64,000 nucleotides of DNA from Candidatus Woesearchaeota archaeon (GCA_030651375.1 JAUSFM010000003.1:1-64000), one strand, 5' to 3'. Shown: positions 20,014 through 52,500, counted from the stretch's first letter. Numbers and translations are program-made. Notes: generated by a model not told the origin, from the sequence alone.

Positions 20014-21309
20014 ATGGCAAGAGAAAAGCCCCACATAAATTTGATATTCATCGGACACGTTGACCACGGAAAGTCCACTACAGTCGGACGACTGATGTAC
20101 GATACCAAGAACATTGACGAAGCAGCCATGCGCAAGCTCAAGGAAAAAGCAGAAGAGCTCGGCAAGAAAGGATTTGAATTCGCCTTCGTTATGGACAATC
20201 TCAAAGAAGAGCGGGAACGTGGTGTCACCATTGACCTCTCCCACCGCAAGTTTGAGACCAGCAAATACTACTTTACTATTATCGACGCACCCGGACACAA
20301 GGACTTCATCAAGAACATGATTACCGGAACGTCACAGGCAGACGCCGCAGTACTTGTTGTTGCTGCAACCGACGGCATCATGGCTCAGACCAAGGAGCAC
20401 GTGTTCCTTGCAAAGACCCTCGGTGTCCAGCAGATTATCATCGCCATCAACAAAATGGACATGCCGGGCGTTGAATACAAACAGGAAAAGTTCAACCAGA
20501 CCAAGGAAGATGTTTCCAAGCTGCTCAAATCAGTCGGCTACAAGCCTGACCAGATTCCGTTTGTGGCGATGGCATCACTTCACGGCGAGAACGTTGCAAC
20601 CAAAACAACAAAAATGCCATGGTACACGGGCAAATCACTGCTTGAAACCATCGACGATCTCAAATCACCTGAAAAGCCAACCAACCTTCCGATGCGCATG
20701 CCTATACAGGATGTCTATAACATCACTGGTATCGGCGTTGTTCCGGTCGGAAGAATTGAAACCGGCATTCTCAAGGTAAACGACAAAGTCATGATTGTAC
20801 CCGGCCGCGAAGGAAAAGGCGTGCCCGGCGAAGTCAAAACAATCGAGATGCACCACGAACAGATGCAACAGGCAGAGCCCGGCGACAACGTCGGCCTTTC
20901 AGTGCGTGGCGTTGGTAAAAAAGACATTACCCGCGGCGATGTTATGGGTCACCCTGACAACATTCCAAAAGTTGCCAGCGAGTTCACCGCACAAATTATC
21001 GTGCTGAACCACCCAACCGTTATCACGGCAGGATACACTCCGGTGTTCCACATCCACACTGCACAGGTTGCGTGCCAGTTCATCGAACTGGTCAAGAAAT
21101 TGAACCCTGCAACCGGCGAAGTGCTTCAAGAGAAGCCTGACTTCATCAAGAACGGCGATGCTGCGATCGTAAAAATCAGACCGCTCCAGCCGCTTGTCAT
21201 TGAGAAGCAGAAAGACATTCCCCAGCTTGCCCGATTCGCAATTCGCGACTCTGGTGCAACCGTTGCTGCGGGCATGTGCATTGACATTGTCGAGAAAAAG
21301 CTCGCCTAA
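20014..21309 (+). CDS. tef1A: Translation elongation factor 1A
   Basis: This is a 431-residue aEF1A, the GTPase that delivers aminoacyl-tRNA to the ribosome. It has G1 [10 protein letters not shown]2/switch I RGVTIDL, G3 DAPGH, G4 NKMD and the two beta-barrel domains. Length and sequence are those of archaeal EF1A, and it is followed by uS10, the classic archaeal order. Confidence 0.97.
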
Positions 21310-22393: not shown

Positions 22394-22679
22394 GAGGTAG
22401 GACCGTGTTTTTGTTGTTCGCGTTGTCAGTACACGTTCATGCCGCTTCCAGTGTTGTCTGAAGGTGGAATGGCACGCTCGCGTGCACTTTCGGCTTGAAC
22501 CCTTTGCCAAAATAGCAAAAGTCAATAGTTTTCTGCATCTCCATCACCTCAATGATTAATCTTGTTCTGTAGCGTAACTTATATATAAATGTTTTGTTTT
22601 TATATTTATTATATTATAAAATGGAGTACTTATATAAGTCTCATAGTGGGCGCCGCGGCATTAATCGGTGTGTCGTACG

Positions 22680-22692
22680 TAAAATTTATATA
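22680..22692 (+). promoter_or_regulatory. TATA box of the RelBE-like operon
   Basis: AAATTTATATACT lies about 25-30 nt before ATG 22718, so the antitoxin is leaderless and starts there. Confidence 0.55.
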
Positions 22693-22717
22693 CTATAACC
22701 ACTATATCTGCTATAGA

Positions 22718-22924
22718 ATGACCACCACAACCATCCAACTCAGCAAAGAAACCAAAGCAGCCATAAGCACTTTTGGCGGGAAAGAAGATACGTACGATGA
22801 TATTGTCAAACGGATGTACGATCTCGCTGTCAAAGAACAATTGCGCGAACTTCTTTTTTCGTCTGAAAACACTATAACCCTTGCCGAAGCCCGTAAACGG
22901 CATGCTGAACGATGGCACAAATAG
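22718..22924 (+). CDS. Antitoxin of a RelBE/ParDE-like pair
   Basis: This 68-residue protein starts MTTTTIQLSKETKAAISTFG, the short ribbon-helix-helix style N-terminus of archaeal antitoxins (strand TTIQL, then two helices, YDDIVKRMY). The C-terminus would bind the toxin. It overlaps the toxin gene by 13 nt. Confidence 0.75.
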   Translation: MTTTTIQLSKETKAAISTFGGKEDTYDDIVKRMYDLAVKEQLRELLFSSENTITLAEARKRHAERWHK

Positions 22925-23253
22925 AAATTGTAGAAAGCCTCTTTGAAGAAATAGAAAAAACGTTTAAACAAGACGCTGACCGTGTTTTTGATTTGATCGA
23001 GGAGCTTGAAGAAAATCCTCACAAAGGAAAACTTCTGGGAACCGTTGGCGGCATCGTCATCAAAGAATTAAAATATAACACTTTCCGATTCTACTTTATT
23101 GTCGATGGATTTAAACTTAGATGTATCCAACAGGAAGAATTAACCGACATCCTTCTCAAATTTGTCAGAATGTCTGATAAAAAACATCAACAACAAACCA
23201 TTGGCGAAATTAAGCATATTCTTAGAACAATCGGTGTAGGCGGGTTTGTGTAA
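22912..23253 (+). CDS. RelE/ParE-like toxin
   Basis: This 113-residue protein has the RelE/ParE pattern: two N-terminal helices, LIEELEENPHKGKLLG, then beta strands with ELKYNTFRFYFIVDG and a strand with LTDILLKFVRMSDKK. RelE homologues cut mRNA at the ribosome. A C-terminal extension (HQQQTIGEIKHILRTIG) is longer than in many members. Confidence 0.75.
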   Translation: MAQIEIVESLFEEIEKTFKQDADRVFDLIEELEENPHKGKLLGTVGGIVIKELKYNTFRFYFIVDGFKLRCIQQEELTDILLKFVRMSDKKHQQQTIGEIKHILRTIGVGGFV

Positions 23254-24516: not shown

Positions 24517-25107
24517 TTATTTTACTTGAACTTCTCTCGGCCGTTTCAGAAATGGAAGGTTTGCCATAAGCTGCTCAACAACTGGCTTGACTGCAGGCGA
24601 ATATCCCTGCACGCGCAGCATGCCGAGCGGTTCAGGCACCGTAACTGCAACGCCGTGCAAGAGATATGCTCGCTCATGGAAATGCGGCCAGTGCGGCTCT
24701 TCGTGCGGATGAATTCGTTGTGCCCTTTTGTCTAAATAAGCGACCGCAGCAACATAATCATCTACCGTGAGTCCTTTTCCAATGCTGCAGTTAATTCTGA
24801 CGGTTGTTTGTTGGTCACCATACTGGCGAAAACTATCATCTCCGACTTGTGTGAATTCAACAATATTGTCTCCTTCTTCGCGGATTTGCGGATCGTCAGT
24901 TGCTCTTGGTCCCGTGCTGCGTTGTATTGTCCGTGCTGGCTCTGCAGTTGGGGTGAGTTGCTGTGCAATTCCCGATGCTCCATAGTCGCGTACTCTACTT
25001 CTCAGAACATACCAGTGACCAAGCGTTACTGTGCCGGCAATTACACCTATCATCACCGAAGTAAGTGCCATTTCAGTAAGTATCTCAAGACTTTGTTGGT
25101 CAACCAT
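24517..25107 (-). CDS. Single-pass membrane protein, 196 aa
   Basis: This 196-residue protein has one hydrophobic helix near the N-terminus (about 12-33), a low-complexity linker with R, T and P, and a small C-terminal domain (about 95-190) with a His-rich stretch (HPHEEPHWPHFHERAYLLHG). That stretch may bind metal. It is divergent from the amidase operon, with a CTTAAATAG promoter element. No family is recognised. Confidence 0.6.
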   Translation of the reverse strand: MVDQQSLEILTEMALTSVMIGVIAGTVTLGHWYVLRSRVRDYGASGIAQQLTPTAEPARTIQRSTGPRATDDPQIREEGDNIVEFTQVGDDSFRQYGDQQTTVRINCSIGKGLTVDDYVAAVAYLDKRAQRIHPHEEPHWPHFHERAYLLHGVAVTVPEPLGMLRVQGYSPAVKPVVEQLMANLPFLKRPREVQVK

Positions 25108-25250: not shown

Positions 25251-25955
25251 ATGCTTACTTTTGCTGCAGCTCGGCTTGGGCGTTTGCCTGTTGTTGAATG
25301 TCGATATCCACTTCGTGCAAACCATGAACCCATGAAGGGGTTTGATAGGATCTATCTGCACAATACCTACAAACATAGTGACCTGTCAGACCTTTTGGCA
25401 TTTTCTCTTGGGCGTGGCTTTGCAGGCATCGGCTACCATTTTGCCATTCATCCTGACGGAACAATTTATTCCACGCGCCCACTGGATGTGCAGGGCGCGC
25501 ACACGCTCGGTAAAAACCAGCACAGTGTTGGCGTGGTGCTTTTGCATGCCGATAAATGCGCTTCGTCATCGCCGGCGCTTGCTGCTTTTTATGCGCTTCG
25601 GTCAGAATTATCAAGCCGAGCAGGCATCTCTCTTCCGGTGTTGTCCCACACCTTTGGCCAATTTGAACATCTGAACGATTTAATTGAACGCTACAATGGA
25701 TTGGTTGGCACGTCAGGCATGCCGTTGTCGGATGTCGGTATGGATGTGTGTGACCATGGCCCTTTTTCTGTTGCACGCGAAGCAATCAGCAGAGCAATCG
25801 ACGCGCAGTTTCAGCGTGGCGTACAACGTGCTTTTGCTGAACCATTTCAGCGTGTTGTTTCCATGTTTCACTTATTAAAACTCTGTCCGGGCCCCTCGTA
25901 TCTCCGCGTTATGGAAGCAGGGCAGCGCTACAGCGGTGGAAATGATGGCAGATAA
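25251..25955 (+). CDS. N-acetylmuramoyl-alanine amidase/PGRP-like hydrolase
   Basis: This 234-residue protein resembles the amidase_2/PGRP fold, a zinc amidase that usually cuts the lactyl-peptide bond of peptidoglycan. Matches are IYLHNTYKH (first zinc His, H37), FAGIGYHFAIHPDGTIYSTRP, DVQGAHTLGKNQHSVGVVL and VLSHTFGQFEH (H133). The usual final Cys ligand (in CPG) is not in the standard place, so the metal site is uncertain. No signal peptide is seen, unlike secreted cell-wall amidases. It is the first gene of the operon and overlaps the next gene by 11 nt. Confidence 0.75.
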   Translation: MLTFAAARLGRLPVVECRYPLRANHEPMKGFDRIYLHNTYKHSDLSDLLAFSLGRGFAGIGYHFAIHPDGTIYSTRPLDVQGAHTLGKNQHSVGVVLLHADKCASSSPALAAFYALRSELSSRAGISLPVLSHTFGQFEHLNDLIERYNGLVGTSGMPLSDVGMDVCDHGPFSVAREAISRAIDAQFQRGVQRAFAEPFQRVVSMFHLLKLCPGPSYLRVMEAGQRYSGGNDGR

Positions 25956-27162
25956 ACCAAAGAGGCCTCGTCGCCAGTCTCTTTTTCAACGCATTCAGGA
26001 TGACCTATCTCTTGATTTTTCAGGTTTCTCTTCTGCTGACTCAAGTCGTTTTTCCGGATATCAGCAAAGAGTGGGTTATACCTACACTCCTTCCCAATCG
26101 CTACTGGAACAACTTTCTCGTGCTGAACTGCAGCGCGAGTTTGGTGACATGATTCCAGAAACACTTGGTGAAAAACTTGCAGAAAAAGTGCGGAGCTATG
26201 AATCCACTCTTGACATGTACATCAGCGTGAGCTTTTACGATCTTACTGGGCGCGTTCCTTCTTTTTCTATTTCTGGCGACCGTATGGGTTGGTCAGCATC
26301 AACTATCAAAGTTCCCGTCATGATTGCCGTGTTTCACGCTATCGACCAAGGAACACTCGACCTCACTGATAAACTGGTGGTTGATCATCGATATTCTCTT
26401 GAAAGTTATGACGCAGTAACTAACATAAAACTCGGAACAGCAGTCTCTGTCTATGACCTGCTCGATCTCATGATTAGTGCTTCAGATAATGAAGCGACCA
26501 ACATGCTTGCTCATCATGTGACCCTTCCGTACATTAATGCGCTTATGCAGGAGCTTGGTGCCACTCGCACCATGATGGGCCATCTTCTAAGCGCGAATGT
26601 GCCGCGAACGCGTACCGAGTGGAACCCCGATGGGAGCAACCCGACAACAGCAAACAATCTCACGCTGCTCATGGCGCGGATTTATGAGCTGACTGCTGCT
26701 TCACCAGCCAGTTGTCTGCAGATGCAGAGGATTCTTGAACAAAATAGTTCTTCCCCGTTAGGCACCTACCTACCTATCGGCACCATCATCGGTAGCAAGA
26801 TGGGATCTATCACCGACTCTCGTGATGGCGACGATCTTCTTGTTACTGGCGTCATTGACCAACGGTATGCGCTGACCATCATGTGTAACCGCATTGGCCA
26901 GCACAAGAGAAATTCTGTGCTAACTGAGGTTCATACTGCTGTTCCCGTGGAACCATCACCAATCGACATTGCGTATCTCCAATTGCAGGGTGTGCTTGAT
27001 GAATTTCATCGTCAACATTCATTGCCTTTTGTGTTTAATGTCGAAGTACATCCACAACCATTGCTTCCGGCGGTGAGCAGTGCTGGAAGCGTTATGAATG
27101 TTATTTCAAGAATAGTGTATGATGTGTACTATCACGGCATGATGCGGGGTTTTGACCGATGA
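25945..27162 (+). CDS. Class A beta-lactamase-like serine hydrolase
   Basis: This 405-residue protein has an N-terminal helical extension (about 1-90) followed by a class A beta-lactamase-like domain. Catalytic motifs are visible: SxxK as STIK (S119, K122), SASDNEATN with SDN at 180-182, and SKMGS in place of KTG (K285). An E in RTRTEWN (E225) may match the general base. No signal peptide is present, so a cytoplasmic peptidase, transpeptidase or esterase of the penicillin-binding fold is likelier than antibiotic resistance. GGTGG lies just before ATG 25945; it overlaps both neighbours. Confidence 0.8.
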   Translation: MADKPKRPRRQSLFQRIQDDLSLDFSGFSSADSSRFSGYQQRVGYTYTPSQSLLEQLSRAELQREFGDMIPETLGEKLAEKVRSYESTLDMYISVSFYDLTGRVPSFSISGDRMGWSASTIKVPVMIAVFHAIDQGTLDLTDKLVVDHRYSLESYDAVTNIKLGTAVSVYDLLDLMISASDNEATNMLAHHVTLPYINALMQELGATRTMMGHLLSANVPRTRTEWNPDGSNPTTANNLTLLMARIYELTAASPASCLQMQRILEQNSSSPLGTYLPIGTIIGSKMGSITDSRDGDDLLVTGVIDQRYALTIMCNRIGQHKRNSVLTEVHTAVPVEPSPIDIAYLQLQGVLDEFHRQHSLPFVFNVEVHPQPLLPAVSSAGSVMNVISRIVYDVYYHGMMRGFDR

Positions 27163-28775
27163 CCGAACCAGTCTACGTCGGAATTGAAAACGAGTTTCAG
27201 ATTATGGACACGTCTACTCAATCCTATCGTCAACTTACTTCCGGACCTGATTTTTTTTGGAGAGATCTACTAAAAAGATATAAGCAGCCTCACTTTAGAA
27301 AAAGTCCGACGTCTATCAGAACACGCGTTGGCTCTGGCATTTACATTGATGGGGAAGATCCTGAAGTATGCACGCCACCTGTGCGGGTTGAACAGGGGTT
27401 TGCCACAAAGGCAGCAGCAGCATTGTACGCTGGCAGAAAAGAACTTCTCGATTTGCTTTCGTCAGAGCCCGCCGCGCGTCTTGTTGGTTTTTCAACGCAC
27501 TGGAATATTTCTGTTCCTTCCATCGACAATGGCAGTGCTGACAGTTCGTCTCACATGAAATCATACGTTGTTCCTTATTCTCTTTTCACCTTAAACCCGC
27601 TCTCGGTGGGAACTAATCTTCGCCTGAAACAGAACAATCGGCAGGACGGCCCAGTAGTCCGCTGGGAACTGTTAGGAGACTACATTGAAGACATGGATCA
27701 GATTATTTCATTTTTACTCTTGTACGCTGCAAGTGTTTTTAGTACAGGGAACGGCGGAAAAATGCCCCTTCAATCTGGTGAGTTTCCTCTCATTGACCTA
27801 AAATATGCACATCCTGTTCTTGACGGCAGGCATACTAAGGTCACTGCATTTCTTCATGGTACATTTACCACCATCACTGCCCAAACATATCTTGAATTAA
27901 CGTATGACTATCTGAAACCAGTTATTCTCAAGCTTGGCACGCCAGAAGAAGTGGCCACGCTTGAAGATTTTGTGCAGGGAAAACGAACACTTGATATGGA
28001 CCGGTTCAGGCGGTTTGCAGTGCAGTATTCATATAAAGGAGCAGACCTGAAACTTGCGTATGACCCACTTTTTTGTCTCGATGCAAAAGCGTATGCAGAA
28101 GAAAAAAAACTGCCGCCGCTCGCCGCGTTTCTTGGTTCAGTCGTCGAGCAACAGCGTGTGCACGAAATGAGTTCATGGGATGCCATCACCATTAGTGATG
28201 CTTCTGGCCGGGCAATTTCGCTTTTATCTCTGCCTGCTATGGATGTTATCGCAGAAACCCTCCCACGCCTGAAGCCCGTACAACAAAAAAGATTAGTTTC
28301 GGCTCTTACTGACCAATACGATTCTGTGGTTCATGAGGATATACTTGAACTTCCCAATTCTCTTGCAACTGATGTAACAATCCCCCAAAGAGATCGTAAA
28401 GTATTGTCAAAAGAACTTTCACGCGCTGTCAGGGCGGTTTTTGAGCCAGCTGTTTCGTTGAAATCACCACTCTCATTTCCCATCCGGAATCTTGATGATT
28501 TTATTGAACATGAGCATCCTCCGTACGATTCTTCTGCAGATGCCTCTCTCCCTGAAGGCTATTCTCCTTCAGACTCACAACGCCAAGTGAGCTGGCGTCG
28601 GGCGTGGCATGCGTCAAAACTTTCACGTTCCAACTATCTTGCCGTAGGTGTTGTTGGAGCTGTTGCCGCCCTTGTCATAGGAGTTATATCCTACATTGAT
28701 TATATTCATCCCACTGTCCTTGCTGAACAAAAAAAAGTTGAAACAACGTCTGCCCCTGGGGATGTAAATAAATAG
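27159..28775 (+). CDS. Glutamine-synthetase-fold amidoligase, paralogue 1, tail-anchored
   Basis: This 538-residue protein begins TEPVYVGIENEFQ, the Glu-containing metal/ATP motif of the PafA/Dop, GCS2 and amidoligase families. It continues with RTRVGSGIYIDGEDPEVCTPPVR (compare NG-R-Y-D-x-PE-x-TP in PafA/Dop), STHWNIS, RWELLGDYIEDMDQI and ITAQTYLEL. These enzymes join a carboxylate to an amine using ATP, or reverse it. A transmembrane helix at about 493-516 near the C-terminus should anchor it with the catalytic domain inside. It overlaps the previous gene by 4 nt. Substrate unknown. Confidence 0.65.
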   Translation: MTEPVYVGIENEFQIMDTSTQSYRQLTSGPDFFWRDLLKRYKQPHFRKSPTSIRTRVGSGIYIDGEDPEVCTPPVRVEQGFATKAAAALYAGRKELLDLLSSEPAARLVGFSTHWNISVPSIDNGSADSSSHMKSYVVPYSLFTLNPLSVGTNLRLKQNNRQDGPVVRWELLGDYIEDMDQIISFLLLYAASVFSTGNGGKMPLQSGEFPLIDLKYAHPVLDGRHTKVTAFLHGTFTTITAQTYLELTYDYLKPVILKLGTPEEVATLEDFVQGKRTLDMDRFRRFAVQYSYKGADLKLAYDPLFCLDAKAYAEEKKLPPLAAFLGSVVEQQRVHEMSSWDAITISDASGRAISLLSLPAMDVIAETLPRLKPVQQKRLVSALTDQYDSVVHEDILELPNSLATDVTIPQRDRKVLSKELSRAVRAVFEPAVSLKSPLSFPIRNLDDFIEHEHPPYDSSADASLPEGYSPSDSQRQVSWRRAWHASKLSRSNYLAVGVVGAVAALVIGVISYIDYIHPTVLAEQKKVETTSAPGDVNK

Positions 28776-28784
28776 GTACTGCCC

Positions 28785-30308
28785 ATGGAAAAAAAAATTG
28801 GCTCAATCATCGAAAGCTTGCTCGGGAGCTTACAAAAGATTAGAGAGCATAACAAACTGGTTGCTGCTCGTGAAACTAAACTGGCATCACGATTTAAGTT
28901 CTATCGTGCATGGGGTTCTGTCCTGCTTTCCACAGCTCTTGCATCTACCATTATCTACAGTTCTTGCCATCCTCGTGCGGTGCGCCAGCGGAAATTAAAC
29001 GAAGCAATAGCAAACGTCGAGGTGGGAAATTACGAGACTGCAGAACGTTTGTTTGATGAAACAAAAAAGGAGCAAGGAGTCGGTGCTCTTGAGGTACTTC
29101 TCTCAAAAACTACTATGACTGCACAAATTAATACCTATTTTCAACGGCACTGTAGTTGGCAAGATAATCTAACTGTTCGGTTAGTTGCTGGCTCTGACTT
29201 TAGTACTCCCATCCAACCAGTTGTTGTTCCCCCGTACAGCAGCCCCCTTCTTGTAGTGGGGCACGTTGACGGATTGTTTTCAGTTTTTAACAATTATGGC
29301 TCCAGTTCAACCTATTTAATGCGCTTTTCTGGTTTGATTTCAGCAGGCACCGCCGCAGTGCTGGCAACAACTGATCATGGTATTTATCGGATTGAACTTT
29401 CTTATGCGCAGGAAGAAAACTCGCCTAAAATCACCTTGACTCCTCTTTTCTCGTCTAATGAAAAAATAAGCGAAGTGCGCCGCTACGCCTATAATGGCAA
29501 CACTGCTTATTTCTTCATGACTGAACAAGGCAACGTTCGCGGTATTTCAGAAACAGGCGAACCGCTTTATTCGAGTGACAATAAACCCCCAAAGATCCTA
29601 CTGCCCCCGGTAGTGATTGACCAAGTACGGGGGCCGAGTGTTGTGCTTAGTTATTCCGATAATAAATTCGTTCTTTCATCTGAATTAAGCGAACCGACGA
29701 TGAAAGCTCTTCAAGAACTAACAATCTCCGTTCATCCCTCTGCAGTTGGTGATTTTGATGGCAATGGAAAACGCGAAGCAGTTTTGTTCAGCGACCGAGG
29801 AACGTACCTTCTTGATGGTGAGCGTGGATTGGTACAGCTTCCGGGAAATGATTATACCCTCCAAAACAAGTTGCACATTTCTGTTGCTGATGCTAACCAT
29901 GATGGAATTGATGATCTTCTTATTGGCCGTGAAGACAGCAGTGATACTGGCCTGTATGTATTTCCGGGTGACGAGTATTTGCCGCTTCGTTACCGTTTTC
30001 GTTTGACGTCTGATGAGCCGGGTGCACCTGCAAGCGTACTGTGGATTGGTGCGCAGACGGTGATTGCATATCCTGACCATGAGTGGACAAATCACGCTCG
30101 TTTTATGGATGCGCGCGGCAATCCACTTTTCTCATTCGCTGCAGACACTCCGGATTATCACTCTCTTTTTGAAGCACAGTTCGAAGGCAGACTTTATTTG
30201 GGAGTGGCATTATCTTCATCGGTTGGATTTATCCCCCATTGTTTCATTGAACCAAATATCCCCCCTCATCTTTCATTAGCAGAGAACAATGGCCGGAATG
30301 CAAAATGA
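28785..30308 (+). CDS. Membrane-anchored FG-GAP/VCBS-type protein
   Basis: This 507-residue protein has a short N-terminal cytoplasmic helix, one membrane helix (about 43-61, ending in Cys), then a helical segment and a large beta domain. Two calcium-type repeats are clear: VGDFDGNGKREAVLF and VADANHDGIDDLLIG, as in FG-GAP/VCBS beta-propellers. These usually bind proteins or glycans outside the cell. It lies between the two amidoligase genes, 9 nt after one and overlapping the other. Confidence 0.7.
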   Translation: MEKKIGSIIESLLGSLQKIREHNKLVAARETKLASRFKFYRAWGSVLLSTALASTIIYSSCHPRAVRQRKLNEAIANVEVGNYETAERLFDETKKEQGVGALEVLLSKTTMTAQINTYFQRHCSWQDNLTVRLVAGSDFSTPIQPVVVPPYSSPLLVVGHVDGLFSVFNNYGSSSTYLMRFSGLISAGTAAVLATTDHGIYRIELSYAQEENSPKITLTPLFSSNEKISEVRRYAYNGNTAYFFMTEQGNVRGISETGEPLYSSDNKPPKILLPPVVIDQVRGPSVVLSYSDNKFVLSSELSEPTMKALQELTISVHPSAVGDFDGNGKREAVLFSDRGTYLLDGERGLVQLPGNDYTLQNKLHISVADANHDGIDDLLIGREDSSDTGLYVFPGDEYLPLRYRFRLTSDEPGAPASVLWIGAQTVIAYPDHEWTNHARFMDARGNPLFSFAADTPDYHSLFEAQFEGRLYLGVALSSSVGFIPHCFIEPNIPPHLSLAENNGRNAK

Positions 30309-31822
30309 GCCCGCCCCTTTACGTCGGCATTGAAAACGAATTTCAGGCATTTGATGCGTTAAAATGGAGTCCAGAGCCGCTTGATTTTAAAACTCTGTGG
30401 CCGGGCCTTCTCAAAAAATATCCACCTACCTATCACAAACTATCAGATACTGCGATTCGCACGCGCATGGGTAATGGCATGTATGTGGATGAGCACGATC
30501 CAGAAATCTGTACACCGCCGGTGCGCGTCCAGCCGGGATTTACCCAGCAGGCCTATGACACGCTCTATCTTGCACGGCGGGAATTACTCCGATTTATTTA
30601 TTCTGATCAAGATATCCGTGTTATTGGCCATTCTACCCACTGGAATATGAGCAATCCGGGCGGCACTGATTATAGCGCTGACCATTTCGGCTTTGAGCTT
30701 TTTTACGCACTTGCTGTTCCCTATGCCCTTTTTATGCTCACGCCCCATTCAGTCGGGAGCAATGTCCGCGTTAAAAACAATGGCTCACGAATTGAACTGC
30801 TCGGTGATTATATCGAATCGGAAGACCAAATAAAAGCATTCCTTCTCTTCTCGGTGAGCAGTGCAGTGTATTTTCATGAGCATGGATTAAAATCGCTGCC
30901 TCTGTCTCTTGGCATGCGCACTCTTTTTAAGAATCGAGAAAATGACGAATCACAGTATTACCCTAATCTTGTGCACGATGGAAGATACACCGATGTTCCG
31001 GTTGTTGCGCATCGCCATAAAAAAAGTATCACTGCGCAAACCTATCTTGAAGCAGTATTTCATTTTTTTAAAAAAAGGCAGGCATTTATTGGGACACCTG
31101 AAGAAATACAAAATCTCGAAGACTTTGTGACCGGCAGAAAAAAGCTGGAGATTGACGACTTCAAGGAGCATGCAGTTCGGACTTCCTATAAACACGGCGG
31201 TGAACTAAGTTTCAGCCCTTCTTTTGCACTTGATCCTTGGGCATATCACGATGAACGCCCGCTTCCGACCGTGCTGGCTGATTTTTTAGGCGACCTTGCA
31301 CAGCCCCATGGCGGAAGCGAATCTGGCCCGTACCTTCCTTCTTCTGTGCAGGTTGAAAGACTCGCATGGGATTATGTAAAATTTCGGTATGCTTCCTCTC
31401 GCCATAGCACTGGCTATTTTGAAGCCAACGGCGTGGGCTCTATTGATATGCTTGCCGAATTTCTTCTGCGCACGCCGAGAAACCAACGCACGCAAATCTT
31501 TCGCTGGAATAACCGCGCTCTTGCACAGCCCGCTCTTGCAGGGTTTTTAAAAAATCTAAAAGAAATATATCCCAGTCCTCATGAAAGAAGGACTTTCTAT
31601 AACCTTTCAGGCCCTGCGTTTGAGCGGCTGTGTGCAGCGTATGAACAAGTCTATGCTTCTCTTCCTCCTAACATACAGCCAGCATCTCCTTCACCGCCTG
31701 CCTCTTTTTTAGGTCAGCTCACAAAACTCGAGCGGAAAAATCGTGCAGCTCTCGAGCGTGATCCCCTTCTTAGTTTTGAAGAATACTGCAAATCTCACAA
31801 AAAAAGAAAAGATAGAAAATAA
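30305..31822 (+). CDS. Glutamine-synthetase-fold amidoligase, paralogue 2
   Basis: This 505-residue paralogue of the 27159 product shares YVGIENEFQ, RTRMGNGMYVDEHDPEICTPP, STHWNMS, RIELLGDYIESEDQI, ITAQTYLEA and the GTPEE---LEDFV-G segment. It lacks the C-terminal membrane helix, ending in a basic tail. The two ligases could act on different substrates, or as a ligase/deamidase pair like PafA and Dop. It is the last gene of the operon, overlapping the FG-GAP gene by 4 nt. Confidence 0.65.
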   Translation: MSPPLYVGIENEFQAFDALKWSPEPLDFKTLWPGLLKKYPPTYHKLSDTAIRTRMGNGMYVDEHDPEICTPPVRVQPGFTQQAYDTLYLARRELLRFIYSDQDIRVIGHSTHWNMSNPGGTDYSADHFGFELFYALAVPYALFMLTPHSVGSNVRVKNNGSRIELLGDYIESEDQIKAFLLFSVSSAVYFHEHGLKSLPLSLGMRTLFKNRENDESQYYPNLVHDGRYTDVPVVAHRHKKSITAQTYLEAVFHFFKKRQAFIGTPEEIQNLEDFVTGRKKLEIDDFKEHAVRTSYKHGGELSFSPSFALDPWAYHDERPLPTVLADFLGDLAQPHGGSESGPYLPSSVQVERLAWDYVKFRYASSRHSTGYFEANGVGSIDMLAEFLLRTPRNQRTQIFRWNNRALAQPALAGFLKNLKEIYPSPHERRTFYNLSGPAFERLCAAYEQVYASLPPNIQPASPSPPASFLGQLTKLERKNRAALERDPLLSFEEYCKSHKKRKDRK

Positions 31823-43271: not shown

Positions 43272-44408
43272 ATGCTCTCAAAGAAAGCCCAGATTAGTAT
43301 GTACCTTATTTTGGGAATTATCATCCTCCTTTTTGTTTTGATACTCTCATCACCAAAAAAGGAACAGCAAACAACATCTTCGTCGTTCACTTTTGCCACT
43401 GCTGCAAAATCAGCACGGCTCCAGGTTACGGAATGCTTGCGGGAAAAAATCAAGGAAGCAGTGCTCTTTGTGGCGCACCGTGGTGGTTATGCGGTTCCTC
43501 CGGAGAACTATGTTGACTTTGCTGCAGAAGAATCACCGCTTATTTCTTCGATTCCGTATTATCAAGTGCGCGATGAGCTTTTTATTCCCAGCGATGAAAC
43601 GGTCAAAAAAGGAATTGGTGACTATCTCGCTCTCACCATGCGCAACTGCACTGGCACCATTCAACTTCCTGATTTCAATATCACGTTTGGTGTGCCGTTG
43701 TTTGTGGTTGACCTTGTGACAGAACAAACCAGTTCCAGCAAGATAACCGTGTCTGCCGCAATTCCGACAATACTGACTTCTGTTGATACTCGTGAACAGA
43801 TAACTATTAGCGGGTATGTAGTGGTCATTCCCTCACGCCTTGGCGAGGCGCTTCGCATCAGCAGGAATATTATAGGCGACAATCACCTTGCGCTGTGCCT
43901 TTCATGCATGGCACAACAGACGCCGCGTGACATGGAATTACAAACATTTGAATCAAATCAGCCGCCGGATTATGTCATGGTGTATCAGCTGCTCTACAAC
44001 GAAACATTTGATGAAACACGTCTTGGTACAAAGATGCCGGCAGTATTCCAGTTTGCTGCAAAATACGCATCAGACAGTAACCAAACAGCTGGCAGCATCA
44101 ACATTATTAACGAGCATGAATTGGCGAGTGTGACTGCAGTTGTTGGCACGCCATTCTCACTTGACATCAAAACAAACGCAGCGCGCGCTCCTGGTCAGTT
44201 TGTGCAACCTATTGCACATACAGTTCAGTTTTCCGACGACAGCGACCTGTTTGACATCGTTGCTGATTCGGTCATCGGCACCGGCAAAATTGCATTTACT
44301 CCAACGCCCAACATGGTTGGTCCCCACATCATTGAAATAAAAGCCACTGATGAAACAGGCGCGTGGGACAGCACGGTTATGGTTCTTGAGGTGAAGGAGC
44401 ATGAATAA
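43272..44408 (+). CDS. Pilin-like surface protein with Ig-like end, cassette 1
   Basis: This 378-residue protein opens with a class III (type IV pilin-like) signal peptide: MLSKKAQISMYLILGIIILL, with cleavage expected before Gln. An ectodomain with a conserved pattern (ECLREKI, GGYAVP, VPLFVVDL) follows, then a C-terminal Ig/He_PIG-like domain ending IIEIKATDETGAWDSTVMV. GAGGTAGAT precedes the ATG. It overlaps the giant gene downstream by 8 nt. A paralogue sits at 48504. Confidence 0.78.
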   Translation: MLSKKAQISMYLILGIIILLFVLILSSPKKEQQTTSSSFTFATAAKSARLQVTECLREKIKEAVLFVAHRGGYAVPPENYVDFAAEESPLISSIPYYQVRDELFIPSDETVKKGIGDYLALTMRNCTGTIQLPDFNITFGVPLFVVDLVTEQTSSSKITVSAAIPTILTSVDTREQITISGYVVVIPSRLGEALRISRNIIGDNHLALCLSCMAQQTPRDMELQTFESNQPPDYVMVYQLLYNETFDETRLGTKMPAVFQFAAKYASDSNQTAGSINIINEHELASVTAVVGTPFSLDIKTNAARAPGQFVQPIAHTVQFSDDSDLFDIVADSVIGTGKIAFTPTPNMVGPHIIEIKATDETGAWDSTVMVLEVKEHE

Positions 44409-47400
44409 CGAACTGCCCGCTCCTTCTTCCCGCTTGTTCTTCCCCCTGTTTGTATTCCTTATTCTTTTTCTTATACATGTTCCTTCATTACTCGCTGCTC
44501 CACCGAATCAAATGAACCAAATCCAACTATCGTTCAATCAACAGCCAACGCTTGATGCGTTCTTAAAAATTGAACATCCCACTGCTGCTGACCTTCTCCT
44601 GCTCCATCAGCGCAATCCTTCATTGGTCAATCTCAATGCGTGGAATAAACTGTCTTCTGACAATAAAATTTTGTTTCTCACCCAACAGTATATTAGCGAA
44701 TATGCGCGCGACGCCGTTGCTCATGCATCATTCACTTCAGGAACCTCGTCTCTTGCTGATGAGCAAAAGATTGCAGAGCTCTTTTTTTCCAAAAGCGCAG
44801 AAAATATTAATGGCCAGCGTCCAGCATTTGTCAACTATCTTTCATCATACGGTGTTGATATCCGGGTTGACGGAAACGTGCAGGGATACACTGCGTTAGG
44901 CGTGCTGAAAGGAAACAACGGCGAAGTAAATGTGCGCCTGCTCAAAGAGCGTTTTGCCTTTGGGGTGCAGCCTGATGGAAGCATTGTGCTTGTGCGCAAA
45001 GGCGCTGACCGAAAAACAGCAGTGGCGCATTCATTTACGGGAAAGATTCTGGCAGCAAAAGACGGCTCAATTTCCTTGATTAGGGGCTCGTTTGACGGGA
45101 ATACGGTTGAGCAGGTGACCAACTTGGTTATTGACTCGCATGACCGGGTTGTTGCGCGGGCAGAACTATTTGGCCCATTTGCATTTACCAAGCCGACGTT
45201 GCTTATGTTTATGAAAGGAGATTCAGGGGCTGGAAAACCCGACCGCTATCGGATACAGCAAGACACTCGTTTGCGGGGCTTTTCCCATATCATTGGCGGA
45301 ACATTCTCACTGCGTGGGGATGCGCGCGAACCATTTTCTCGGCGGCTGTTTGTTGAGCAAGGAGATGAAGGTGTTGTTGATGGATATGAAATTCGTGGTG
45401 TCAATAACCGCGTAAAAATTGCCTTTGAGAAAACTGATTTTGACAGCCGGGCATCTGCAAATACCGTTTTTTTTGCGCCCGACGGAAAAAACGTCTTTAT
45501 GGCCAGTGCCGGCGCGAATCCCTACGAAGTTGCTGCTGACCCTGCTTCAGTTATTGCGGGACGAAAACTAATCGGGCAGAGTGTGCCGTTTCTTGAGGTG
45601 CCTGACCGCGGCTATAAACCCGGAGACCAGTTTGAGCCGGGGACGACTGATTTTTTTAATCTCATGATGATTCAGCGGATTATTGGCGATCGGCAAACCG
45701 GAAAATATACTACAGCAACCAGCTCAAAAGTTATCGCGTGGCAGAATGCCTACAACAAACGCCATCAACTCCAGTCGGTCGATGCTGGCTGGCTCTCTCC
45801 TACTGGCCGCTGGGATGTGCAGAACAGTGACGCTTTTTTCCAAGAAGCAAGCGCTTCATCGACGATGATTTTCAGGCCGAGCGGCGGAACGGTTGCCATA
45901 ACTGAAGGCGCCACACTGAGTGTCCAAGTAAAAGGCAAGGTTAGTTTTTCATATGGCAACGAACAGTATGACCATCTGACTGGGCGTTTGACGCGGAAAA
46001 AAACTTTTTTTAATCCCGTAAGCCCGTTGCCAGTTAGTATTGTTGCGTATGATGATGCGGGAAAACAGGCCGCGATTGTGACGAGGGAAGGAAACAAGAA
46101 TAGTGTTTTTGCTTTTAACCAAGGGTTTATGAGCGGCGAGAATTGCCTGCCCTGTTTCATTGCGGCAAACATGGATTTGAGCCAGGTTGAATGCGCTGGT
46201 TTTGTGCGCAGGCTTGCCCGCTTGGAGGGAGGGTATTATCAGGCCTATGGGCTGCGTAAACAATCATTTGACCTGTACACTGGACAGTATGGCAATGCAT
46301 GGGAAATTTCAGAAAATATTCGCGACCATGGCGGAACGAGTTTGTACTGGAAAGAAGCAGGGGGCGATTTGCCACTGCGTGATCCACGCCTTGCTGCGCA
46401 GGTTTCCTATGATTTTGGCTCATTTAAAGAAGGCGACGTCATCAGCATGTACTTTACGGGCAGCAATTATCTCGATGAATCATTTGCCGACGGGAAAGAC
46501 GGCCGCCAGAATACCCACGTCGCAAAAGTACTCGGCACAACCACTGAAGTCTTGAGCTATGATCCTTCACCCGGTTCCTTGGGGCAGTTTCTTAAAAAAG
46601 AAATCGGCGTGCAGAATCCGACCTTGTTGGCCAACTTCCCGGTTTGGGTAAAAAAAGAGGATGATGGTGCTGATGCGTATCAGCGCGTTCGTTTGCACCC
46701 TGATGGAAATTATTATGATGGATCAGGACACCGTGTTGTTCCCGGGCGCGATACTGTTGTCAAAGTGGAAAAAATTATCATTGCGCAACTCTGGCATCAA
46801 AATCCCAACCAGCCTGAAGTCGAAGCGGTTCGCCAAGAAGATTTCGGAAGATTTTTGGATGACAATCCTTCATTTTCCCTCTATGAACACCTGCGCCCGA
46901 ATGAAAAACGAATGGCTGACGCTTCGGCAAATAACGACCTGAACGGTGTGCAGGCGATGCAGTTGCGCTATAAAACAATTGAAGAGGAGTTGCAAGCACG
47001 CCAGGTTCCCGAGCGTGATATTCCTGCGCTGGCAAAATCAATCAAACTGCGCAACGCAATGAACGCACCAAAGGCCGGTGATGTGTTATTTGTTTCGCGA
47101 ACCAGCCCCTATGAAGAGGAGCGTGCAGAGCCATCGCTTTCCCTTAGTGAATCGCTTGAAAAACAGGGAGTGGATGATGCTGAAACATGGCGCACATTAA
47201 TTACAAAATCAACTGAAGAACGAATGCGGGAGTATCCGCTGGCTGAAAGCGATGCACAGGACTTTGAGTTGCTCACGCTCTCGGTCGGTCTCAAGGAATC
47301 AGGACTGACTGATAGTGTTTGGGGATATCACAAAGCAAAAAAACAAGCAGAAGACGCTGCTGCGTTGCTCGGTTCTTGGGCGCCTGATTTTAGTTACGGC

Positions 47401-47940
47401 TATTACCAGCTTCTGCCGGAGAATGCACAACAAAATGCAGCGGAATTATCATTCCAGGGCGTTATTCCCGAGAATGATTTTGACGGTCCCCGTGAGCTTA
47501 CTGGCAAAGAGGGCGCGGTGAAACATGGCCAGCGGCAGTTGGCAAAACTATGGACAAAATATGTGACGCCTGATATGGATCGGCAGCAGAAAATCCAACT
47601 GGTTGCTGCTGCGTACAATTGCGGTGAATGGTGCCCACGGAATGCTGCATTCCAGCAGCAGTTTAATGATATTGCAGGAACCTCAATCACTCCTGATGGC
47701 AGGCTCGGTGACCAAACAGTAGATTCCGTAACCGTGTATGCACAGGCGCACGGGATTGAATTCAAACGAGAGGATATTCTTGCTTCAGGTACTTTGTTTG
47801 AACAAACGCCCCTCTATCAACATATAAAAGAACAGTGGCGCATAAAAAACAGCCGAGAGCCTGCATATGGAACCATCCCTGCATGGCCATATGGCGCACA
47901 GGTAATGAATATCTGCCGTGAACTTTCAGCACGCTGCTGA
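44401..47940 (+). CDS. Exported multi-domain peptidoglycan-hydrolase-like protein
   Basis: This 1179-residue protein has a signal or anchor helix (about 13-32). A beta-rich region (about 140-400) contains PDG-type turns. A PG-binding-like domain (about 418-482, MMIQRIIGDRQTGKYTT) follows. Then comes an NlpC/P60-like domain with Cys598 in VECAGFVRR and His706 in NTHVAKVLG. A lysozyme/SLT-like domain (about 950-1080) has Glu966 in VGLKESGL, FSYGYYQLL and AAAYNCGEW. Each is a fold that cuts peptidoglycan. It is coupled to the pilin-like gene and is very unusual for an archaeon. The exact bond cut is inference. Confidence 0.75.
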   Translation: MNNELPAPSSRLFFPLFVFLILFLIHVPSLLAAPPNQMNQIQLSFNQQPTLDAFLKIEHPTAADLLLLHQRNPSLVNLNAWNKLSSDNKILFLTQQYISEYARDAVAHASFTSGTSSLADEQKIAELFFSKSAENINGQRPAFVNYLSSYGVDIRVDGNVQGYTALGVLKGNNGEVNVRLLKERFAFGVQPDGSIVLVRKGADRKTAVAHSFTGKILAAKDGSISLIRGSFDGNTVEQVTNLVIDSHDRVVARAELFGPFAFTKPTLLMFMKGDSGAGKPDRYRIQQDTRLRGFSHIIGGTFSLRGDAREPFSRRLFVEQGDEGVVDGYEIRGVNNRVKIAFEKTDFDSRASANTVFFAPDGKNVFMASAGANPYEVAADPASVIAGRKLIGQSVPFLEVPDRGYKPGDQFEPGTTDFFNLMMIQRIIGDRQTGKYTTATSSKVIAWQNAYNKRHQLQSVDAGWLSPTGRWDVQNSDAFFQEASASSTMIFRPSGGTVAITEGATLSVQVKGKVSFSYGNEQYDHLTGRLTRKKTFFNPVSPLPVSIVAYDDAGKQAAIVTREGNKNSVFAFNQGFMSGENCLPCFIAANMDLSQVECAGFVRRLARLEGGYYQAYGLRKQSFDLYTGQYGNAWEISENIRDHGGTSLYWKEAGGDLPLRDPRLAAQVSYDFGSFKEGDVISMYFTGSNYLDESFADGKDGRQNTHVAKVLGTTTEVLSYDPSPGSLGQFLKKEIGVQNPTLLANFPVWVKKEDDGADAYQRVRLHPDGNYYDGSGHRVVPGRDTVVKVEKIIIAQLWHQNPNQPEVEAVRQEDFGRFLDDNPSFSLYEHLRPNEKRMADASANNDLNGVQAMQLRYKTIEEELQARQVPERDIPALAKSIKLRNAMNAPKAGDVLFVSRTSPYEEERAEPSLSLSESLEKQGVDDAETWRTLITKSTEERMREYPLAESDAQDFELLTLSVGLKESGLTDSVWGYHKAKKQAEDAAALLGSWAPDFSYGYYQLLPENAQQNAAELSFQGVIPENDFDGPRELTGKEGAVKHGQRQLAKLWTKYVTPDMDRQQKIQLVAAAYNCGEWCPRNAAFQQQFNDIAGTSITPDGRLGDQTVDSVTVYAQAHGIEFKREDILASGTLFEQTPLYQHIKEQWRIKNSREPAYGTIPAWPYGAQVMNICRELSARC

Positions 47941-48503: not shown

Positions 48504-49571
48504 ATGGACCAAAAAAAGGGGCAGATTTCGCTATTTATAATACTCGGCATTATCCTTCTCATAATCGCCTCGCTTTGGTTCTATTATCAGCGCGTCAGCG
48601 TGCAAAAACCCACAGCAGTTGAGGCGCCAACGGATATCAAGGCAGTGCAGGAATATGTGGAACAGTGCATTAAAAAAATAACGCCTCCTGGTGTGTACCT
48701 GCTTGCGTATCAGGGGGGCAGGATGTATACAGACAAGGATTTCCAGCAGGATGATTTTACTGAAAAAAACTTTCTCACCTTTGAGCGTGCGTTTCCGTAC
48801 TATCTGCTTAACGGAAAAAAAGTGATGCCAAGCCGTAGCGACATCGAAAAGGAACTGGGAGCATACGTTGCTGAAAATCTTCCCTTGTGTGTTGACTTTT
48901 CTGGCTTTGCCCAACAAGGAATGGCTATTGCCGAAGGCGACGTCACGGCAAAAACAACCATTGCGCGCGACCGCGTTATTGTTGATGTGACATACCCGCT
49001 TGAAATAATCGTTAAAGACAAAGTAAGTACGCTATCAAAATTCAGTGCTGAGGTTCCGAGTAGAGCATTTGATTTGCTTGCGGCTGCCGAAAAAATGCTC
49101 GGCATCATAACCAAAAACCCCGAGCGTGCCAATCTTCCTGCATTTGCCCAGCTCAACAGCCAGTACACAGTCATGATTTCTCTCCTGCCGTTTGACAAGG
49201 AAACAATGGTTTACTCCATGTATGACGACGATGAAAAATTCTGGGTTGATAACGCACCGCTCATCTGGTGGTTTGGCGTTAGTGAAACACGGCCGCGCAA
49301 GGACGCCACGGGAAACAGTGCGCCACGCATTTTGAACCTGAAGGATTTCGTGCTCCGAAGAAGCGTGCCGTTCACGTACGATGTGGACGCATTTGACGCA
49401 GACAATGATGCCGTATCGTTCACCTCAAATAACCCTTCAATTCCTATTACCAGCGACGGGCTGTTTTCCTTTACACCAATAAATATTGGCACCTTCACCG
49501 TCAAAATAAAAGCAACTGATACTCATGGCTCCAGTGATGAACGCAGTGTCCGCTTCGTGGTCGAGGACTGA
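48504..49571 (+). CDS. Pilin-like surface protein with Ig-like end, cassette 2
   Basis: This 355-residue paralogue of the 43272 gene starts MDQKKGQISLFIILGIILLI, an ideal class III signal (KKG before Gln). The ectodomain keeps the same pattern (EQCIKKI, QGGRMY, PLCVDF). The C-terminal Ig-like domain has FTPINIGTFTVKIKATDTHG. The gene overlaps the giant gene by 47 nt. The pair again looks like an anchor plus large exported partner. Confidence 0.78.
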   Translation: MDQKKGQISLFIILGIILLIIASLWFYYQRVSVQKPTAVEAPTDIKAVQEYVEQCIKKITPPGVYLLAYQGGRMYTDKDFQQDDFTEKNFLTFERAFPYYLLNGKKVMPSRSDIEKELGAYVAENLPLCVDFSGFAQQGMAIAEGDVTAKTTIARDRVIVDVTYPLEIIVKDKVSTLSKFSAEVPSRAFDLLAAAEKMLGIITKNPERANLPAFAQLNSQYTVMISLLPFDKETMVYSMYDDDEKFWVDNAPLIWWFGVSETRPRKDATGNSAPRILNLKDFVLRRSVPFTYDVDAFDADNDAVSFTSNNPSIPITSDGLFSFTPINIGTFTVKIKATDTHGSSDERSVRFVVED

Positions 49572-52500
49572 GAAAAAACGAGCAGTGATGGTGCTGTTCC
49601 TAGTTTTACTCCTCGTTTTCACTCTCCTCGTTTCGCTTTCTGTTGGTGCAGCAAGTGCCACGACTCCTGATACTTCCATCACTGGTGATATAAGCCCTGA
49701 TGCATTTAAGGCGCTCTCTCCTGAAGATCAGCTGCATCAATTGCAGGCACAGTACCGTGATGAGCTCGCCGCGCTTTTTTACGGCGACACAACAAACATC
49801 GGCAAAGATGCGCAACTTGACCTTCGCTATTTTAACACGCCTGCCAACGTGCTGAAAAATCTGGAAACAAGCAAGACCTATTTTCAGCGTCCGGACACCC
49901 TACAACAGGCTCGTGAAGGTGCGCGCGCTTTTTTCGCTAATGCCTACCAAGCGAATTATGTTTTTGACGCATCGGCGACGCGCCTTGCTTATAATTCAGA
50001 CGCGGGAACGCTGTCGTCCGGCGGCAAAATAATTCGTCTTGCTGATTTTTTCAACAACAAAAAAATAAAAGAAATCCGCGCGGTTCGCGATGATTTTGAA
50101 ATCACTGAAGTTGATGGCGTACAACAAAAAACAATCACTTTTTCCGGCGCAGCGCCGGTTGCACTGGCGTACAAAGAGGGTGTATTCTCCCTCAAAAACC
50201 AGAACGGAGAAACGCACACCGTACAACCCGACGGGTCCAGCAGATTTGCCTTGCAGCCTGATGGAACGCTGACCATTGAAGGAGCTGCGCACGGCACGCT
50301 TACCATCAACAAAGTGCCCATGGATTTTCGTATTCGCGAGCGCATCGTTGACACCGATGACACGCCATCACTCACGATTCAACAAAATGGCGATATCACC
50401 ACTGGAGTCAGAAGTGATGTCGAACTTAACACGCCAACCTTGTATCTCGATGGTACTTTTGCTATCACCGGCGGCGGAAAAGAGGTGTACACCTACAGTC
50501 TCGGTGGAAAACAGGGTATGCGAAAAGGCGTTGACCTTGATGACCAGGAAACAAATGGCGAAACGGTTCTTGTCGATAAAATGTCAGGCATCGGCGTGAT
50601 TAGCAGCGGGCAGGACCGCAAAAAAAACGAGTTTGTGCTGACACATCTCGATCAACTGAGCGATTCCTCGGAACTGGTGCCAAAAAAACTGGCGAGTGCT
50701 GAACAGGCGCGGGAAAAGGCAGATGGCCTACGACGCGAATCCTCTCCATCAGCAGGACAGAGCGCCGAAGTGTTCATCAACCATGCCAGCGGCGCAACAA
50801 CGGTGTACAGCCGCGGAAAAGTCATGGTGCGCAATTACTTTGTCAGCAGTGGCCAAGTAGTTGGTACGAATCAAAACAAAGCATCATTTACCGGCTCAAC
50901 TGCCTCGTCAACTTTTGACTTTGTCAGCGACCAGCTTACGCCGCCGGCTCGCACGTCAGAAACATTTGTTATGAACGGCGAAGGAATCTATACCGACAAG
51001 CACTATCGTGCAGAAACACAGCAATCAGGAGCACGGCTGAGCAAGCGCGACAACGAGGCGTTTCTGTCAGTCGCGTGCAATGGCTGTCAGAATGGAAACG
51101 CGGCAAAGATTGTAAAAAACATTGCAGTTGTTTCTACGGGCGACGAGATAACCAGCGATGACATCCATCGGCAAAGCCTTGAAATCACCGCTGATGTGCG
51201 CGGCGGAAAACTGGAATTTGATGTTCCAGCGGCGGCATTGAAAGATATGAATGACGCGCTCGACGCTGATGAGTCATCATTTTTGGCATTTGACAGCCCG
51301 CTGTATGTCAGTGCCGAGGGGGGAAAAACCTTTTTTGGTATTGGTAGCCAAGGCATTGGCAGATATGAAACAAAAATCAACGGCAAGACCCAAGCAGTCA
51401 GCATAGTGATGAACGGCAAGAGTATGCTCGGCCAGCCGCAGGAAATAAAAACCGGAATTGACGTCGGGCTTCTCTCAAATCCAGCGTACGCAAAACATCT
51501 TCAGCAATCCTTCTCACTTCAAGACCGTGCAGAAGCGCAGGCGCGCACACTCGGCAAGCAATTCAACATCCGAATTGGTGCAGACGGCTCGTGCCTTGAC
51601 AAGGCATGCAGCGCCGCAATGAAACAGTCGTCAGCGGCGCTTGGTATCGCCATGAATGAACTGCAAAAGACCAACATTCAGGCTTCAAACGAATTGAACA
51701 ATGCCCTTCTTGTTTCTGCGCAAAAGAACGGCGAAGAAACCAAAGGAATCAAAAAAGCAATAAAACAAAATGACGCGCTGTACCGAACACTTGTTGCCGA
51801 GGTTGCAGGCCAAAAAAAAGCAGGTGAAGACAAACAAGACGACCTGAAACGCGCAGCATTTATCGGCGAGCAGCTGCGCAGCGTCGATGTTATCATTCGC
51901 GGCAAAGAGCGGAAAATTGCAGAATTGCAGGAACAGATTAGCGCCTCAAAAGAGGAGCAAGACTGGCAGAAATTATTGAAGCAAGTAAACGACATGAAAG
52001 ACGATCGTGACCGATTGGACCGGCAGCGTTACCAGCTCGAAAAGCAAGCAGCAATTCTTGACGCAACCTACGCTGAATCAGATCCTGCAACGAGTGCGCG
52101 CATTTCCTTGTCTGCCATTGGCGTTGATGAACGATACCGCGGCGCCGAGCTGCAGCGTGCCAAGGACCGCATCGCATCCATCGAGAAAAAAGATCCTGCG
52201 CTTGCTGCGTTTATGGGCATGGAAGCAGACATGAAACAAGGCAGGTCTCCGATTCTTCTTCAGCAGGCATTAAAAAAATATGAAACAGTGCAACAGAGCG
52301 GCAGTGAATTGCTCAAGCTTCAGGCACAGCGGCTGAAAACCGATCTTATCGACCGTCCGCTTGCTGATGCCGAATACGAAAAAATGCGCAATGCGTATTA
52401 CGGCGAGATTGTCGACGATGAAACCGGCGTGCGCATTAGCAAACGAGAAGCAGGACGGCAGGAAAACGAATGGGATGGCTCAACGATGGTGACGGTTTTC

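Follow-up and report, generated by a model that had tools for sequence, protein, structure and literature searches.

A Woesearchaeota operon with PafA/Dop-like ligases, a zinc amidase and a class-A-like serine hydrolase suggests an archaeal module for building and cutting amide bonds

A 64,000-nucleotide stretch of DNA from a Candidatus Woesearchaeota archaeon (GCA_030651375.1, JAUSFM010000003.1:1-64000; hereafter the window) carries, at positions 25251-31822, an operon that we read as a new module for amide-bond assembly and remodelling, and not as a pupylation system. It comprises five open reading frames (ORFs), all on the + strand and arranged head-to-tail, encoding a zinc amidase, a serine hydrolase of class-A beta-lactamase fold, a carboxylate-amine ligase resembling PafA and Dop (ligase 1), a predicted membrane protein with FG-GAP-type repeats, and a second ligase (ligase 2). 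This five-gene layout, in which three junctions overlap (by 20, 4 and 4 nt) and one leaves a gap of 9 nt, is real, and the ORF coordinates agree with those of an earlier description made from the sequence alone (the sequence-only reading). What is new is that the amidase is stably paired with both a PafA/Dop-like ligase and a class-A-like hydrolase of the cytosol; no report of such ligases in DPANN archaea, nor of this operon, was found in the open-access literature. In an archaeon that lacks a bacterial-type cell wall, the operon suggests that amide-linked peptides are assembled and cleaved by a route not described before.

The ligases are encoded at 27159..28775 (ligase 1, +) and 30305..31822 (ligase 2, +), the latter being a paralogue of the former with identical catalytic motifs. 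Neither showed an above-cut-off family match in Pfam (E<=1) or NCBIfam, Amidoligase_2 (PF12224) was not matched, and searching PDB sequences with the ligase or its profile returned noise only. Foldseek comparison of an AF2 model of ligase 1, built with four relatives (pLDDT 58, pTM 0.57), against the PDB gave 16 matches at E<=1e-3, all of them carboxylate-amine ligases, headed by Dop (1.1e-10) and PafA (9.3e-9) and followed by YbdK (1r8g, 1.1e-6), bifunctional glutathione synthetase and glutamine synthetase; structural identity to PafA/Dop was 12-15%. When a profile of the nine archaeal ligases described below was compared by hhalign with PafA/Dop, represented by PDB chain sequences, the two aligned over GIExEF...YxD..PE..T (P ~1e-4, at best 8e-5) with a score of 42.1, exceeding all 100 column-shuffled controls (maximum 26.6) as well as unrelated alignments (at most 23.1), while YbdK, a single sequence and so a weaker profile, scored 18.3, not above background. 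The predicted model and the profile comparison support a glutamine-synthetase-type carboxylate-amine ligase fold, the only fold matched by ligase 1 at this threshold and the one that the sequence-only reading required of the ligases. Judging from the family, the enzymes should form amides in an ATP-dependent manner.

The superfamily features described in PMC2588565, namely GhExE, acidic residues on strands 2/3, HxN and a conserved Arg near strands 5/6, are largely present in the archaeal ligases, including the loop Asp of YxD. The corresponding motifs of ligase 1 are GIENE 8-12, Y62-x-D64, P68-E69, H114-x-N116 and R168-x-E170. The GhExE motif on strand 1 occurs in every member (as GAENE in genome G294 and GIESE in G309), and D64, E69, H114-x-N116 and R168 are conserved across the ligases, with the exceptions of HxS in G309 and LE in place of PE in G248. 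At the position of the YxD Asp, the PafA chain of 4bjr has Asn and that of 4b0t has Asp, the Asn being consistent with an engineered catalytic mutant. The two ligases of the window share 47% identity over 331 residues; in the ligase tree, ligase 1 groups weakly with the G084 ligase and not with ligase 2 (84/91), so an origin of the pair by recent duplication is unsupported.

The structural proximity to PafA and Dop also bears on a pupylation-like tagging system, in which the ligase would place a small peptide tag on lysines and ligase 2 or the hydrolases would remove it, in a host with a 20S proteasome. Dop and PafA are the closest folds, the two paralogous ligases recall the PafA/Dop pair, and proteasome subunits are encoded in the genome. 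However, no Pup (PF05639) was found above cut-off (best 16.1 bits, within a 596-aa frame), no conserved small ORF of at least 50 aa lies beside the module, and among the genomes found the second ligase is confined to this one. In addition, the block IINTRDEPHAD...RRLHVI.GD.N is missing from the ligases when they are aligned with PafA/Dop, and PF03136 had no match in this genome at E<=10, with a positive Corynebacterium control; on these two grounds the ligases are filed as a separate family of the superfamily, structurally nearest to PafA/Dop. Strict pupylation, already disfavoured by the absence of Pup and of a small ORF common to the modules, was rejected once the missing RDEPHAD block and PF03136 match were added, and a looser tagging system of this type is rather improbable.

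To assess conservation of the module, a ligase profile was run against 353 genomes of the order, nine of which carry real ligases; one further match, in G291 (8.5e-4), was discarded as spurious since it sits in a peptidase-like frame. The order amidase-hydrolase-ligase is found in five genomes from four GTDB-type families (the genome of the window, G000, together with G084, G036, G156 and G309), and hydrolase-ligase without the amidase in a sixth (G294), in line with the gene-order conservation anticipated earlier. An FG-GAP gene lies 3' of the ligase in G000, G084, G036 and G294. Since the identical order recurs in distant genomes of the same order, the arrangement is not a product of chance, and member identities of ~24-47% combined with intact catalytic residues point to long-term selection on function. 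In an all-against-all comparison of the neighbourhoods, the amidase, hydrolase, ligase and FG-GAP genes were the sole gene types common beside the module, barring synteny between G156 and G095; a few further common genes were scattered elsewhere in the compared regions, away from the module. An alignment-based contig scan recovered three related loci in named records, two of Candidatus Woesearchaeota and one labelled simply "archaeon"; the alignment query was needed for these, as a single ligase protein gave zero matches in the contig scan.

The source of the genes appears secure. The window belongs to a 262-kb contig of a 1.3-Mb genome rated at 100% completeness and 0.9% contamination, and an EF-1A gene at 20014-21309 marks the contig as archaeal, which together make bacterial contamination unlikely. 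A phage, plasmid or defence origin gained no support, as IMG/VR, plasmids and phages held no relative of the ligases and PADLOC and PHROGs returned nothing for them.

Some side observations concern these loci. In the sister species G095 only the amidase is present (L076:596-1492), in a region syntenic with the G156 locus (L011:7041-7958), where the amidase is accompanied by a hydrolase, a ligase and an AsnRS-like gene; the two amidases are 37% identical, and most flanking genes 57-80%. The G156 neighbour (L011:10900-11931) is a class II tRNA-synthetase-like gene (tRNA-synt_2, 343 aa), possibly an asparagine-synthetase-type paralogue. Two genomes, G295 and G296, have solo ligases near PAC2-like genes, reminiscent of actinobacterial neighbourhoods (PMC2588565); this was treated as coincidence because such genes also occur in G291, which has no ligase.

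The serine hydrolase (25936..27162, +) starts at a GTG at 25936, with an in-frame ATG at 25945 as a likely alternative, and the overlap with the amidase gene is kept either way. It matches Pfam Beta-lactamase2 (PF13354) with 122 bits and, by phmmer, the PDB entry 4ewf (1.4e-19), and it carries the motifs S122-x-x-K125, S183-D-N185 and K288-x-G, SDN being replaced by SCN in G309 in the family alignment. The earlier designation as a class A beta-lactamase-fold hydrolase therefore stands as to fold, SxxK, SDN and KxG, but the family and PDB alignments reveal no conserved acid in the stretch equivalent to Glu166, which makes a beta-lactam-hydrolysing role unlikely. The enzyme is thus probably not a beta-lactamase; a role as an acyl-enzyme peptidase, esterase or transacylase is more likely, and "class-A-like acyl-enzyme serine hydrolase" is the more fitting label. 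The module hydrolases cluster in a single clade, separate from the other class-A-like proteins that these genomes encode, in a tree limited by long branches. The genome of the window also encodes another class-A-like protein (L086:4661-5683), which has a strong N-terminal membrane helix (hydropathy 2.81), and other weak class-A-like matches are scattered across the order.

The amidase (25251..25955, +) matches Pfam Amidase_2 (PF01510) with 27.3 bits against a cut-off of 26, and the PHROGs amidase phrog_822 at 1.6e-14. Its putative zinc ligands are H37, H133 and C212, with K210 two residues before the Cys and GYHF at 61. The three ligands and GYH are found in all eight amidases compared, and K/R-x-CPG in seven, with Q-x-CPG in G405. 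We take the two His residues, the Cys and the Lys that precedes it by two positions to be those used by T7 lysozyme, and from these motifs the protein is classified as a T7-lysozyme/PGRP zinc amidase (H/H/K/C), a refinement of the PGRP-like amidase recognised earlier. Its presence in an archaeon without peptidoglycan, regarded as unexpected in the sequence-only reading, is less absolute a surprise: according to PMC12352652, peptidoglycan hydrolases occur in nearly 5% of archaeal genomes, prominently in Nanoarchaeota, are modular, and have a signal peptide in 32% of cases. Solo cytosolic Amidase_2 proteins of 215 aa were also observed near peroxiredoxin genes in G405 and G406 (L077:7059-7706; L078:2075-2722).

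Localisation was judged by hydropathy and not by a signal-peptide predictor. By this measure, no signal or membrane helix is present in the five module amidases or the six module hydrolases, and no export signal in ligase 2, which confirms for the amidase, the hydrolase and ligase 2 the earlier statement that they lack signal peptides and extends it, for the first two, to all members.

Families acting on peptidoglycan and a cytosolic location like that of AmpD are what muropeptide salvage would call for, an archaeal analogue of bacterial cell-wall recycling in which imported peptidoglycan fragments would be split at the sugar-peptide amide by the amidase, acting as AmpD does, trimmed at the D-amino-acid end by the hydrolase, and re-used or detoxified as peptides by the ligase. 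The catalytic residues of both hydrolases are intact, and PMC12352652 discusses antagonism of Woesearchaeota towards bacteria. However, the amidase has the HHC pattern of T7/PGRP enzymes and not the Asp type of AmpD, no muropeptide importer was seen, and the genome has no Mur ligase besides a FolC-like protein; we regard salvage as unlikely. A peptidoglycan synthesis pathway was rejected, the sole Mur_ligase_M match in the genome being that FolC-like protein.

The absence of signals would also suit antibacterial cargo, with the amidase and hydrolase as weapons that cut peptidoglycan and reach their target by a route needing no signal peptide, such as a contractile injection system, and the ligase as a maturation or immunity factor. 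According to PMC12352652, signal-less archaeal peptidoglycan hydrolases are found somewhat more often in genomes that carry a contractile-system sheath gene. However, the enzymes lack domains for binding cell walls, such a ligase is not known to take part in any weapon, and the ligases lack the PADLOC and phage associations sought above, so that this is the least probable of the explanations considered, and very doubtful.

A membrane connection comes from ligase 1, whose C-terminal anchor lies at ~495-513 (hydropathy 2.44). A C-terminal hydrophobic helix, usually preceded by positive charge, is found on the FG-GAP-adjacent ligase in four of four FG-GAP operons (ligase 1 of G000, and G084, G036 and G294), and is absent from the ligases of G156, G309 and G296 and from ligase 2. 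The FG-GAP protein (28785..30308, +) matches Pfam FG-GAP with 22.6 bits (cut-off 22.1; 37.7 for the G294 homologue), and shows, by eye, a stretch resembling TPRs; hydropathy places a weak membrane helix near the N-terminus, at ~42-60, and its AF2 model (pLDDT 40) is too poor to interpret. That the four genomes with the anchor are precisely those with an FG-GAP gene suggests a joint function of the membrane protein and the anchored ligase. The earlier placement of the pathway as "cytoplasmic or membrane-bound" is accordingly sharpened, with both hydrolases cytosolic and the anchor, previously located only loosely, assigned to ligase 1 and its FG-GAP-linked homologues.

The reading that we prefer, tentatively and at somewhat below even confidence, is also the simplest one to unite the parts: a cytoplasmic module, membrane-docked in certain lineages, by which amide bonds on a compound resembling a peptide are formed and cleaved. 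The ligase would phosphorylate a carboxylate with ATP, most likely a glutamate side chain or a peptide end, and pass the resulting acyl phosphate to an amine to give an amide. The zinc amidase would cleave an N-acyl amide, the serine hydrolase would form an acyl-enzyme on a peptide or amide, and both may trim, transfer or release the amide-linked group made by the ligase. Where the FG-GAP protein is present, the tail-anchored ligase is probably in complex with it on the inner face of the membrane, acting on a surface precursor or membrane-linked peptide. We infer the directions of these reactions and the sharing of one substrate. Much the same pathway, building and removing an amide-linked group, had been proposed from sequence; fold, gene order and the lack of export signals agree with it, while a peptide, protein or surface precursor as substrate is a conjecture that carries over.

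Several points weigh against this preferred reading. Neither a substrate nor a precursor peptide nor a dedicated transporter was found, the ligase 1 model is modest (pLDDT 58, with TM-scores of ~0.40-0.43 to Dop/PafA), and the module is rare, ligases being present in 9 of the 353 genomes. Ligases (G295/G296) and amidases (G095, G405/G406) also occur singly, which implies that parts of the module can work apart, and the hydrolases and the ligase could act on separate substrates.

Two further explanations were considered. In archaeal conjugation, which has a modest chance, comparable to that of salvage, the membrane-docked ligase would use an isopeptide or gamma-amide bond to link a peptide or an amino-acid group onto proteins or onto surface precursors, with the amidase and hydrolase as erasers or trimmers. 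The other is a biosynthetic pathway whose product is a small modified peptide or a natural product, those resembling ribosomally synthesized and post-translationally modified peptides included; the serine hydrolase would then be a transacylase or peptide-releasing enzyme. Beta-lactamase-fold transacylases are known, and the G248 ligase adjoins a gene for a peptidase of the TldD/PmbA family, which is known from peptide maturation. However, the module contains no precursor peptide, tailoring enzyme or exporter, and the G248 ligase (L029:7467-8741) is interrupted by one in-frame TAG before a well-conserved stretch, though most of its motifs (GLENE, YxD and HWN) are retained; biosynthesis of this sort is improbable, marginally less so than the tagging system discussed above.

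By coupling such a ligase to two cytosolic hydrolases from peptidoglycan-type families, the conserved operon is a pointer to peptide-amide chemistry among organisms believed to be nearly without biosynthesis and to lack peptidoglycan, and its genes could show how DPANN cells use peptide-linked compounds, whether of the surface or salvaged. PafA and Dop are known as a tagging pair found mainly in actinobacteria, and the operon offers expressible genes with which the origin of their chemistry can be tested. Conjugation, if true, would represent an archaeal ATP-dependent tagging chemistry unrelated to ubiquitin-like modifiers.

Elsewhere in the window, a divergently transcribed gene at 24517-25107 (-) encodes a protein of 196 aa that has a hydrophobic stretch near its N-terminus, matches no Pfam family and is absent beside the other modules. 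Two small overlapping genes at 22589-23253 resemble, by eye, an antitoxin and RelE-type toxin pair, a 1179-aa ORF at 44401-47940 has weak DUF1615 and PG_binding_1 matches, and a large ORF of 3078 aa occupies 49525-58761.

Compared with known systems, the archaeal ligases are structurally best matched by PafA/Dop (PF03136), with which they have in common GhExE on strand 1, the Y-x-D...PE...T loop with the catalytic Asp, an HxN-like strand 4, similar size and a C-terminal extension. They differ in lacking a PF03136 match, Pup and the RDEPHAD...RRLHVI..GD block, in having different gene neighbours, and in the C-terminal anchoring of some members. Membrane-linked PafA homologues of Rhodopirellula and Plesiocystis (PMC2588565) likewise tie a PafA-type ligase to the membrane and have a membrane-protein gene in place of proteasome genes; however, those have four transmembrane helices after strand 4 and Pup is present, whereas the archaeal ligase has one C-terminal helix and no Pup. 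The GCS2/YbdK ligases (PF04107) share the fold (1r8g, 1e-6) and the GhExE motif, but their structural match is weaker, their profile score of 18.3 is at background, and the archaeal module lacks a glutathione-type context. The hydrolase belongs to the fold family of class A beta-lactamases and Beta-lactamase2 (PF13354; 4ewf, Tll2115) with SxxK, SDN and KxG, and departs from them in having no conserved Glu166, in being cytosolic, and in forming a clade distinct from the membrane-anchored homologue of its own genome. Similarly, the amidase resembles the Amidase_2/PGRP-T7 lysozyme zinc amidases in its above-cut-off family match, its zinc ligands and, mostly, the Lys/Arg two residues before the Cys, and differs in a long insert between the second His and CPG, its cytosolic location, its archaeal host and its ligase neighbour. 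Like the archaeal hydrolases of PMC12352652 it is a peptidoglycan-type hydrolase in an archaeon, Nanoarchaeota being included among the hosts of those enzymes, which makes the amidase by itself less surprising; those enzymes, by contrast, are modular, one third carry secretion signals, and, within the accessible text of that source, none is described with an amide ligase.

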